Below the pieces are notes generated by a model that made no database searches, was not told the origin of the DNA, and saw nothing but the letters and a program-made list of their open reading frames with translations. Below, one piece after another: positions 13,767 to 17,767 of a stretch of 55,104 nt of DNA. Location of the stretch: contig JANXYH010000063.1 of NCBI GenBank assembly GCA_025350145.1, forward strand, positions 1 through 55,104, given 5' to 3'. The stretch's first letter is position 1, and every line of letters begins with the position of its first letter. The position numbers and the translations under genes are program-made. This DNA comes from Burkholderiales bacterium. GTDB lineage: Bacteria; Pseudomonadota; Gammaproteobacteria; Burkholderiales; Burkholderiaceae_C.

Positions 13767-14414
13767 TCAGCAACCAACGCCACCCAGCGCAAACCGGGGC
13801 CCGCCCGGCGCCGGCAATGGGCTCTGGCCAGCGCCGGGTTCGGCGCCCACCCACAGCCAGCGCACCGGGTGCGGCAGATCGTCGCCGGACTGCCGCAGCA
13901 GCGCCAGCGGCAGGGTCAGCGCCTGGGCGTCGGCGATGTCGGCCAGCACCAGGGTGGCGCGGCGCGGCACGAAACCGCGCTGCCACTGGCGGCGCCCCGG
14001 CGGCGAGGTCGAGGCCCAGCCGGCGTCCCAGGGATCGCTGTCCTGGCGTTGGCGCCACCAGCAGGCGTCGTTGAGCTTGACCTGCGCCCGCCAGGCCAGG
14101 CGCGCCAAGGTGCCGGCCATGGCGTGCAAGCGCAGGCTGCCGTCGATCTCGCAGGCCAGGTGGTTGGCGAAGGCGATCGCCGGCTCGGGCTGCGCCGCCA
14201 CCAGCCGCGCCACCAAGAATCGCGACCGCACCTGCGGTCGCTCGCCCGGCGATGGCGCGCCGCCCGGCCCGGCACCGCCCTGGCACCAGGCCAGCAGCGC
14301 CTGCTGAACAGCGGCATCGTCACCGCCCGGCGCAGCCTGGCCCAGGCGCGGCGCGCCCAGCAGCACCCGGTCGTAGCGCGCGCGCAGGCCGCGCAGGTAG
14401 CGCTCGAGGTTCAT
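13767..14414 (-). CDS. Uncharacterised fourth gene of the bufferin-type operon
   Basis: 215 residues; I do not recognise the family. The start ATG at 14412-14414 overlaps the bufC stop (14411) by four bases, so it is translationally coupled, and codon use has the strong G/C third-position bias of its neighbours, which argues for a real gene. There is no signal peptide. Residues about 65-175 look folded (RFLVARLVAAQPEPAIAF, ANHLACEIDGSLRLHAM, ATLVLADIADAQALTLP) with two conserved-looking cysteines (in WCQGG and LACEID) and a WW pair (ACWWRQRQ); the tail is Gly/Pro-rich. A role in maturation, regulation or export of the copper-binding peptide is only inferred from context. Confidence 0.7.
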   Translation of the reverse strand: MNLERYLRGLRARYDRVLLGAPRLGQAAPGGDDAAVQQALLAWCQGGAGPGGAPSPGERPQVRSRFLVARLVAAQPEPAIAFANHLACEIDGSLRLHAMAGTLARLAWRAQVKLNDACWWRQRQDSDPWDAGWASTSPPGRRQWQRGFVPRRATLVLADIADAQALTLPLALLRQSGDDLPHPVRWLWVGAEPGAGQSPLPAPGGPRFALGGVGC

Positions 14415-15259
14415 GCGACTGGCCCGTCCATGGCCACGACCGCAGCGATCCAGCCCTGGCGCAGGGCGCTGATCAACCAGGCTTCGAAGTCAAAGGCGTT
14501 GCCGGCGCGGTCCAGCGCCCCGGCCAGCGCGGCGCCGACGATCAGGGCGTCAGTGAAATCCGCCGCAGCCTCGTCCAGCGCCTGCACCTGGGGCCGCCAG
14601 CCACTGCGCCAGACCAGGGCGGTCTCGGCCTGTTGCCTGGCCAAGGCCTGACGCGCAACGGCCATCAACGCAGCCCGGTCGGTGGTCGATGCGCAATGGT
14701 CAGGCAGCGGGTGGGCCAGCCAGATGCTGACCAGCGGCCAGGCCGAGCGCAGCAGGCCCAGACCGGGGCAAAACCGCAGCCGCAAGCCGGCTGGATCGGC
14801 CTCGGCCAGCAGCGCCAGGCCGGCAACCTCGGTCGGCGGGTCGGCAGCGCCGGCGCAACGGTGGACGGCCCAATCCAGCCGCGCCACATCGGCCAGGTAA
14901 GGCAGGTCGGCCAGTTGCGCGTCTGCGCCCAGGGCCGATGCGAAATCCGCGCCGAACTGGGCCAGATCGCCGCAACTGGGCGGGTGGCTTTGCCAATGGC
15001 CAGCCGCCACAGCGTTGAAGGTCTCGTCGCCGAGCAAGGCGGCGACGGTCGGAAACGCCACCGCCAGCGCCCGCGCCGCCGTCGCCCGGGCGTTGCCGCG
15101 GTAGGCGCGCAGGCCGCGCGCCTGGCGCTCGGGCGTGTCGGCCAGCCAGGCCGACAGCGGCGGCTCGGGCGGCACGTCGGGCGCCACCTGCCACAGCGAT
15201 TGCAGCAGGCGTTGCTGGCGCTGCAGTTCCAGGCTGGCGGGGGTGGCCGACGCGGTCAT
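14411..15259 (-). CDS. bufC: DUF2063 (BufC-like) partner of the MNIO enzyme
   Basis: 282 residues from the ATG at 15257-15259, which overlaps the bufB stop by four bases (ATGA). The N-terminal 120 residues carry the DUF2063 pattern: [62 protein letters not shown] and [15 protein letters not shown]. Proteins of this family bind the precursor leader and work with DUF692 enzymes in ribosomal peptide modification (established for bufferins and related MNIO systems). The C-terminal half is less conserved and ends in a hydrophobic stretch. It is the third gene of the operon. Confidence 0.88.
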
Positions 15260-16143
15260 GTGGTCCGTCCGGCGTCGGCTTCGGCCATCGCTTGCGCCGC
15301 CAGCGCCGCCTCGTCGAGCAGCACGGCCAGCGCCGGCAGGTCGCTGTCCCATTCGATCAGGGTCGGCCGCGGACCCAGCCTGGCGATGGTCTGGCGATAA
15401 GCCTGCCAGACCGGCGCGTGGACCCGGCTGCCATGGTCATCGATGACGATGTCGCCCAGATCGGCATAGCCCGCCAGGTGGATCTCGCCGACGCTGTGCG
15501 GGTCGATCGCGGCGACAAAGTCGGCCACGGCGGCCAGCGGCGGCTGGCCCGCGTTCAGCGCGTTGACCACCAGGTTGTTGACGTCGAGCAGCAGACCGCA
15601 GCCGCTGCGCCGGGTCAGGGCGTTGAAAAATTCCGCCTCGGCCATGCTGTCGTCGGCCCAGCGCAGGTAGGCCGACAGGTTTTCGACCAGGATGGTCCGG
15701 CCCAGGCGCTCCTGCACCCGCTCCACGTTGGCGCACAGGATCGCCAGCGCGGCGGGCGTGAAGGCCAGCGGCAGCAGGTCGTTGGCATGGCTGACAGCGC
15801 CGCCCGGCGACAGCGCAGCGCGGGCGAAGCAGGCGTGGTCGCTGACCCGCAGCGGCTCGATCTGCCTCACCAAGGCGGCCAGGCGGTCGAGGTGCCAGTC
15901 GTCGACCCCGGCGGCCGAGCCCAGACCCAGGCCGACCCCGTGCAGGCTGACCGGGTAGCGCTCGCGGCCCTGCCGCAGCACCGCCAGCGCGGCACCGCCG
16001 GGGGCGTAAAAATTCTCGCTGTGGACCTCGATGAAGCCCAGCGCCGGGGCCTGCTCCAGCAGCGCGGCGTAGTGCGCCGCGCGCCAGCCGATGCCTACCT
16101 CTGCCAACGGCACCAGAGGCGCCAGTGGCACCATGCTGGACAA
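15256..16143 (-). CDS. bufB: Multinuclear non-heme iron oxidative enzyme, MNIO (DUF692, BufB-like)
   Basis: 295 residues, usual length for DUF692. The TIM-barrel metal-ligand motifs are present in order: [10 protein letters not shown] (His41, Glu43, Asn44), [57 protein letters not shown] and [13 protein letters not shown] enzymes use several iron ions to oxidise peptide cysteines; in bufferins they form thiooxazole-type rings that bind copper. The gene lies 10 bases after the DUF2282 precursor and overlaps bufC. No residue expected at the metal site is visibly missing, so an active enzyme is likely. MSSM offers two start codons. Confidence 0.94.
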
Positions 16144-16153
16144 GGGGCGAGGC

Positions 16154-16438
16154 TTACTTCTTGTCCGCCGTGGCCACCTTGGCTTCGGCCTCGGACAGAC
16201 CCTTCATGCCCTTGCAACTGCCCTTGGCCACGTACTTCCAGTCGTTGACCGACATGCCGTCCTTGGACTGGCCGGCGCAGGTGTGGGTGCCCGAGATGTT
16301 GCCGCAGTCGTTCTGGCCGGCCTTGGCAACGCCGTAGCACTTCTCCTTGCCCTTTTCCTGCGCGCCGGCCTGGCCGGCCAGGCCCAGCCCCAGAGCGGTG
16401 GCGAGTGCGGAAGTGACGATCAGGCGGTGGTTCATCAT
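16154..16438 (-). CDS. bufA: Bufferin-type precursor peptide (DUF2282, four cysteines)
   Basis: 94 residues. Start at the first of two adjacent ATG codons (16436-16438), with GGAG eight bases upstream. Residues 1-26 are a Sec signal (ends AGQAGA). The mature part starts [19 protein letters not shown], has [12 protein letters not shown] and ends the core with VAKGSC: cysteines 34, 45, 54 and 75, the four-Cys pattern of DUF2282. Such precursors are modified by the adjacent MNIO/DUF2063 pair and exported to the periplasm, where they chelate copper. The Lys/Ala-rich tail after residue 80 is unmodified by inference. First gene of the operon 16438-13767. Confidence 0.92.
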
Positions 16439-16536: not shown

Positions 16537-16563
16537 GTCTACGCAGCGAATCGGTTCCTTACA
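16537..16563 (-). promoter_or_regulatory. Possible ECF-sigma-type promoter of the bufferin operon
   Basis: On the minus strand TGTAAGG (complement of 16557-16563) is followed after about 15 bases by GTAGAC (complement of 16537-16542), about 100 bases upstream of bufA. TGTAA-like -35 and CGTA/GTC-like -10 elements with 15-17 base spacing are a common ECF form, and bufferin operons are known to be ECF-controlled in some bacteria. The match is weak and no ECF sigma gene is in the window. Confidence 0.22.
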
Positions 16564-16685: not shown

Positions 16686-17285
16686 TCAAAGACCTTTTGC
16701 GAACAGCGCCGCCTCGGCGTCCCGGCGCCGCGCCAGGCCGCGCAATTCGACCCCGCCGGCCGTGCGCGGTTTGCGGATGAACTCGTTGGCCTCGGGCCAG
16801 TGGCCCTGGTTGATGGCGGCGCGCAGGCGCGAGTGCTGGAAGGCGCCAACGCCGCAGTTCCAGGACCAGGAGACGACGGCGGCCAGGCAGGCGGGGCGCT
16901 GGGCCAGGATTGGGGCGAGTTTGAGGATCTTCAGCGCGTAGGCGTCCAGTCCGACGCGCAATTCGGCCTTGCACTGGTCGACGGTCTGGGCCGGGCTGTC
17001 GCTGGCGATGCCGTAGGTGCGGCCATAGCCGCGGGTCCAGACATTGGGCTTGGCGTAGCGGTCCAAGTAGGGGCGGATCAGGCCGTCATGGCCGCGCTCG
17101 GCACAGCCCTCGAACAGCGCGACGATGGCCACGGCGAGGTCGCGCCAGTCGGCTGAGCCGGCTGCCGCCGCCGCTGTCGCCGCAGTCACCGCTTGGCCGG
17201 GCACGGCTGGCGCCAGCGGCAGGCCGGCTTCGCTGGCGATGCCGGCGGCAAAGCTGCGCGCGGCCGATGACGCATCCGTGGCCAT
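16686..17285 (-). CDS. Phage-type lysozyme (GH24-like endolysin)
   Basis: 199 residues. The first 45 residues are Ala-rich and not a clear signal peptide. The catalytic region carries VALFEGCAERGHDGLIRPYLD followed by VWTRGYGRTYG, the Glu ... Asp ... G-x-G-x-T arrangement of T4-like lysozymes, then CLAAVVSWSWNCGVGAFQHSRL and GGVELRGLARRRDAEAALF, matching the conserved N-G and GL..RR.aE..L elements of the GH24 C-terminal lobe. It cleaves peptidoglycan once a holin opens the membrane. It follows the holin gene by two bases. No other phage genes are near, so this is a leftover or domesticated lysis module. Confidence 0.85.
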   Translation of the reverse strand: MATDASSAARSFAAGIASEAGLPLAPAVPGQAVTAATAAAAAGSADWRDLAVAIVALFEGCAERGHDGLIRPYLDRYAKPNVWTRGYGRTYGIASDSPAQTVDQCKAELRVGLDAYALKILKLAPILAQRPACLAAVVSWSWNCGVGAFQHSRLRAAINQGHWPEANEFIRKPRTAGGVELRGLARRRDAEAALFAKGL

Positions 17286-17287
17286 GG

Positions 17288-17767
17288 CTATTTGCCGGCC
17301 TTGCGCAGGCTGCGGTCGGCGAACCAGAACGAGATGATCGAGCCGAGCATCGCGCCGTCGAACTCGGTGTAGGCGTTGCGCACCGCCTCGACCAGGGGCG
17401 CGCCGCTCTTGATCGACAGGTACAAGGTGGCGATCTTGGCGGCGGTGTAGATGAACATCAGCCAGTAAGAGACCATCGGCCTCACCGAGGCCGACAGGCT
17501 GGCGACCCAGCCGCCGGCAGCCGCAGCCTCGCTGGCCTGTGCCTTGATCGCGGTGGCCAGCAGATCGAGTTCGCCGGCATCGCGCTGGGCGCTGATGTCC
17601 ATTTGCCGCAGATCCTTCTCGGCCGCAAAGCGCTGGCTCTGCAGGGCGACCTGCTTGTCGAACATCACCGCCTCGTGCTCGCGCTCGTTTTGCTTGTCGC
17701 GGGTCTCCATCCAGTGCTGGGTCAGGCGAGAGACGCCGCCGAAGACGATGCCTAGCAGTTCAAACAT
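17288..17767 (-). CDS. Holin, 3-transmembrane family
   Basis: 159 residues. A short hydrophobic start (MFELLGIVFGGVSRL) is followed by a charged, helical middle (about 18-80, rich in Gln/Glu/Lys and probably coiled) and two membrane segments: about 96-118 (RPMVSYWLMFIYTAAKIATLYL) and about 138-150 (GAMLGSIISFWFADRS). The terminal ISFWFADRSLRK is characteristic of Holin_3TM proteins of tailed phages. The start has a good ribosome site (GGAGAAACACC ATG). With the endolysin it makes a complete minimal lysis cassette; spanin genes are not visible. Confidence 0.85.
   Translation of the reverse strand: MFELLGIVFGGVSRLTQHWMETRDKQNEREHEAVMFDKQVALQSQRFAAEKDLRQMDISAQRDAGELDLLATAIKAQASEAAAAGGWVASLSASVRPMVSYWLMFIYTAAKIATLYLSIKSGAPLVEAVRNAYTEFDGAMLGSIISFWFADRSLRKAGK

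Follow-up and report, generated by a model that had tools for sequence, protein, structure and literature searches.

Bufferin-1 (Buf1) clusters are the closest described systems to the locus presented here. According to the sections of PMC12452194 that deal with Buf1, the modification is located on the central cysteines of the precursor, a disulphide links the outer cysteines, and DoxX belongs to the core of these clusters without being obligatory. Characterised pairs of an MNIO enzyme and a DUF2063 protein make 5-thiooxazoles; for the example described in PMC12668002, the mass changes by -4 Da.

In the 55,104-nt stretch of DNA analysed here (the window; contig JANXYH010000063.1 of a Burkholderiales bacterium), genes A, B, C and D follow one another in this order on the minus strand. 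All four are real genes and lie at about the coordinates of the original prediction, which was made from the sequence alone (Table 1). A to C constitute a standard bufferin-1 operon of a known kind, and the noteworthy part of the locus is the fourth gene, D, rather than the precursor. The window's genome contains one match to MNIO and one to DUF2282. Just upstream of the operon, a phage-type lysozyme gene and a gene for a PHROG 6637 protein, whose family has no assigned function and which is holin-like by eye, look like an orphan lysis-type pair.

Table 1. Position and assignment of the features at the bufferin locus of the window.
Feature	Coordinates	Strand	Basis
Gene D, 215-aa protein of an unnamed family, in place of DoxX	13767..14414	-	without family match
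Gene C, DUF2063 partner protein (PME type 1)	14411..15259	-	PF09836, 61.1 bits
Gene B, bufferin-type MNIO (DUF692) enzyme	15256..16143	-	PF05114, NF050167, alignment to 3BWW
Gene A, DUF2282 bufferin-1 precursor, 94 aa	16154..16438	-	PF10048, E 1.1e-21
Putative ECF-type element upstream of gene A	16541..16563	-	
TGTAAGGA box, ECF -35-like, 125 nt upstream of gene A	16556..16563	-	sequence pattern
Phage-type lysozyme gene	16686..17285	-	PF00959; PHROG endolysin
Gene for PHROG 6637 protein	17288..17767	-	PHROG 6637

The family assignments of the first three genes were confirmed. Gene A scored 76.9 bits against the DUF2282 profile PF10048, for which the cut-off is 22.4, and carries the predicted cysteines at positions 34, 45, 54 and 75, numbered from the MMNHRL start at 16438. 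By eye, its translation appears to begin with a Sec-type signal peptide comprising an n-region, a hydrophobic stretch and an AGA-QE site. The DUF692 and DUF2063 profiles match genes B and C at the predicted intervals, the former (PF05114) with 306.4 bits. The best NCBIfam match of gene B is the bufferin maturase MNIO_BufB (NF050167), which at 309.5 bits is just below the cut-off of 310. The motifs HG, SDH, VEN, DVNN, H-AG, D-HG and E are present and sit in stretches that align with the solved MNIO 3BWW. Presumably, they form the metal site that holds the iron ligands. The picture of a four-gene bufferin operon joined throughout by ATGA overlaps, however, is correct only in part. A, B and C fit the expected families, whereas D does not match any family. 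Overlaps of this type connect B with C and C with D, but B starts either 10 nt (TTG at 16143) or 17 nt (ATG at 16136) past the stop of A.

The precursor had been regarded as unusual on account of its tail and its NDWKYV spacer. For comparison with relatives, precursors were captured by a regular expression from 50 overlapping loci (L019-L048 and L065-L084), resulting in 29 distinct sequences; at three loci (L023, L042 and L044) the expression yielded no precursor. The cysteine spacing of gene A, 10-8-20, is the same in 17 of the 29, the others having 10-7-20 (11/29) or 10-6-20 (1/29). Spacers of the form xxWKYV (DEWKYV, NEWKYV or NDWKYV) recur in precursors of the same genus, and a tail like that of gene A was found there in L070 and in L065, where it reads GLTEAEAKAAAKK. 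Since both recur in same-genus precursors, tail and spacer are features of a subfamily. The idea of a variant precursor is rejected, because spacing, spacer motif and tail all recur in relatives; as judged from its sequence, gene A encodes an ordinary one. The operon itself is present according to the family matches. Even so, a variant bufferin with modifications altered in number or place, produced by a four-gene kit, is hardly to be expected from such an ordinary precursor, and none of the other genomes examined has D close to bufferin genes.

By analogy with characterised homologues, the MNIO enzyme and its DUF2063 partner would oxidise the two central cysteines of the precursor to thiooxazoles, while the first and the last cysteine would form a disulphide. 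The modified product would then pass through Sec to the periplasm and bind excess copper there.

The TGTAAGGA box upstream of gene A is unlikely to have arisen by chance, as the gapped pattern was seen in 2 of 100 shuffles. TGTAAG is present in 14 of 20 relatives' loci, and in 12 of these 14 it is followed by a -10-like CGWC after 14-15 nt. In the window, CGTA follows the box at 12 nt and CGTC at 22 nt (manual count), both off the spacing of the relatives. A genome-wide search with the promoter pattern gave no matches. An ECF sigma gene precedes gene A in 6 of the 20 relatives' bufferin loci; the orthologue in the window's genome (78% identity) is located on another contig (C194).

Operons of this kind usually include DoxX, and the original prediction did not mention that the window's operon has none. 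Of 54 other DUF2282 places, 20 relatives' bufferin loci were read with wider flanks. DoxX comes after gene C in 15 of them and was not detected after C by tblastn in the remaining five. Hence, an operon is not exceptional just for having lost DoxX. In one same-genus locus (L070) the junction between C and DoxX is itself an ATGA overlap. No match to DoxX was found anywhere in the window's genome, which is 98.04% complete. From the usual gene order, the junction in L070 and the missing DoxX we infer that D occupies the former place of DoxX. Gene D has no Pfam match to DoxX. Its ATGA overlap with C makes it probable that D is expressed together with the bufferin genes.

One might suppose that D takes over the function of DoxX or helps the MNIO enzyme, as a pseudo-ATPase that serves as scaffold or chaperone and either keeps hold of the precursor or hands it to Sec. 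Its position and coupling are those of DoxX in L070, and DoxX was not found in the whole genome. D has also remained intact, even though no close orthologues were found for the genes that usually adjoin it. On the other hand, D by eye has no long hydrophobic stretch, unlike the membrane protein DoxX. Its occurrence in other genomes, described below, also speaks against such a replacement, which we consider unlikely.

Gene D is an intact open reading frame, and at all 20 positions that are invariant among 11 homologues it carries the same residue. No family match was obtained in Pfam, NCBIfam or PHROGs, no match was found in plasmids, and gene D alone as query found no relative in a first scan of genome contigs. 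On the evidence of sequence similarity, its protein family extends to relatives belonging to the same taxonomic family and order. With the window's own genome counted, 17 of 60 relatives have a match; at family level the figure is 24 of 299 genomes, and within the genus it is 14 of 21. Three weak matches (L018 of G028, L107 and L108) did not pass a scan with the family profile, and the one in G028 is doubtful.

In the 60-relative and 299-genome sets, bufferin genes A-C were found near a D match only in the window's own genome; the flanks covered about 1.5 kb in the 299-genome set and more around the matches in the 16 other genomes of the 60-relative set, where several contigs are short. None of these 16 genomes, one of them with a doubtful match, has A, B or C in the fetched DNA. 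D is no known bufferin gene, and the assignment of the fourth gene to the bufferin kit is not supported: it has no family match, and in the other genomes examined its homologues are located elsewhere, often behind a CoA-transferase III gene. This gene is directly upstream of D in 7 of the 16 genomes (once as a fragment at a contig end), an FMN-oxidoreductase is the only one of the two neighbours in 2, and neither is present in 7. In L050, L052, L053, L057 and L063, for which the ORF coordinates were read, the RTGA start of D overlaps the stop of the CoA-transferase. The best CoA-transferase match in the window's genome has 40% identity, compared with 87-92% for the same query in five genus mates. 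For the FMN enzyme the best match has 34% and a shorter one 42%, compared with 71-84% in six genus mates. Consequently, the window's genome appears to be without close orthologues of the usual neighbours of D. The D homologues of L050, L051, L053, L057 and L063 are 44-53% identical to the first row of the alignment (L052), whereas the adjoining CoA-transferases are 87-92% identical. Hence, D seems to be a rapidly evolving gene next to a slowly evolving one.

Within the genus, the presence of D does not follow that of bufferins. Both D and DUF2282 were found in 11 of the 21 genomes, D only in 3, DUF2282 only in 7 and neither in none (Fisher p 0.52, several of the genomes being incomplete). The genomes with D but no DUF2282 or with DUF2282 but no D speak against a functional substitute of DoxX, as does the finding that the two are linked in no other genome examined.

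The fold of D was addressed by prediction. Neither the single sequence, with no matches up to E 10, nor the family profile, with just two matches at chance level, led to a solved structure. An AlphaFold2 model based on an alignment of ten sequences (pLDDT 82.9, pTM 0.83) has a strand-turn-helix at residues 66-90, where a P-loop would sit. Foldseek returned 603 matches up to E 10 but none up to E 0.001, the best having an E of 2.3e-3; among the best 50 of the 603 the TM score is at most 0.45, and these 50 are AAA+-type ATPases by title (ORC, NSF, TRIP13, RFC and others). The Walker A motif GxxxxGK[ST] is absent from D. Among 33 distinct rows of the family only the distant relatives L105 and L109 have it, with clear versions (GVNGIGKSS and GTNGVGKSS) in the matching place, and both also carry a Walker-B-like LLVLDEP. 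Taken together, the model, the weak Foldseek matches and the Walker A motifs of L105 and L109 suggest that D has a P-loop-like fold without the ATP-binding motif. For this reading, similarity in sequence to L105 and L109 carries more weight than the fold match, which is weak. Both relatives are large frames with N-terminal hydrophobic stretches and look like ATP-binding relatives of D; for the protein of L105, no Pfam profile scored above its cut-off. A DUF2063-like second partner was also considered for D and rejected, since no family match was obtained and the listed Foldseek matches are AAA+ ATPases.

In summary, we read the locus as an ordinary bufferin operon that has undergone a rearrangement, so that D stands where DoxX was and is a lodger in the operon; we assign this reading a probability of roughly 0.7. 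D would have brought its own RTGA start and have been joined by the rearrangement to the ATGA stop of C, which was formerly the start of DoxX. It would be a small protein of P-loop-like fold whose Walker A has been lost and which in genus mates often overlaps the preceding gene by RTGA. Most likely, it keeps a job of its own that is separate from bufferin. A co-expressed lodger is favoured because D and DUF2282 are not associated in the genus and because the linkage is seen in one genome only. Against it stands that D is intact while its former neighbours were not found; D could have gained a role in the operon. A more specific variant, in which a pseudo-ATPase has taken the place of DoxX and part of its role as a soluble helper of modification, Sec hold-back or copper handling, appears decidedly improbable to us.

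As D lies beside bufferin genes in one genome only and this assembly is fragmented (211 contigs), the junction between C and D might also be an assembly chimera of two loci from the same genome or community. The join, however, falls exactly at the ATGA overlap with both genes intact, and GC3 is high on either side (0.82 and 0.90). We consider a chimera very improbable.

With this locus the bufferin-1 operons gain a further member, and the view that its precursor is unusual is corrected. In addition, an accessory gene, DoxX, appears to have been exchanged here at a stop/start overlap of 4 nt, in a single genome, and the analysis documents a family of putative P-loop-like proteins that mostly have no Walker A motif. 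If D has a role in the operon, this genome would offer a natural DoxX-less system in which the function of DoxX in bufferin operons could be tested. A pseudo-ATPase in the role of DoxX, if true, would constitute a new accessory type for MNIO clusters.

The Buf1 (DUF2282) clusters, as far as they are set out in the pertinent sections of PMC12452194, agree with the window in the order of precursor, MNIO and DUF2063 genes, in the four cysteines and in a signal peptide, which here is a putative one read by eye. The window differs from them by the missing DoxX, the unrelated fourth gene and the lack of an adjacent sigma gene. Five bufferin loci of the same genus (L065, L068, L069, L070 and L071, from G003, G012, G004, G015 and G018, respectively) share 68-71% identity with the window in A, 62-73% in B and 39-53% in C over the matched parts. 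In these five, C is followed by DoxX and A is preceded by an ECF sigma gene, whereas the window has neither. The FMN oxidoreductase/CoA-transferase III/D loci of the genus (L050, L051, L052, L057 and L063), with no bufferin genes in the fetched DNA, provide the counterpart: here the CoA-transferase and the FMN enzyme lie by a D homologue with an RTGA start.
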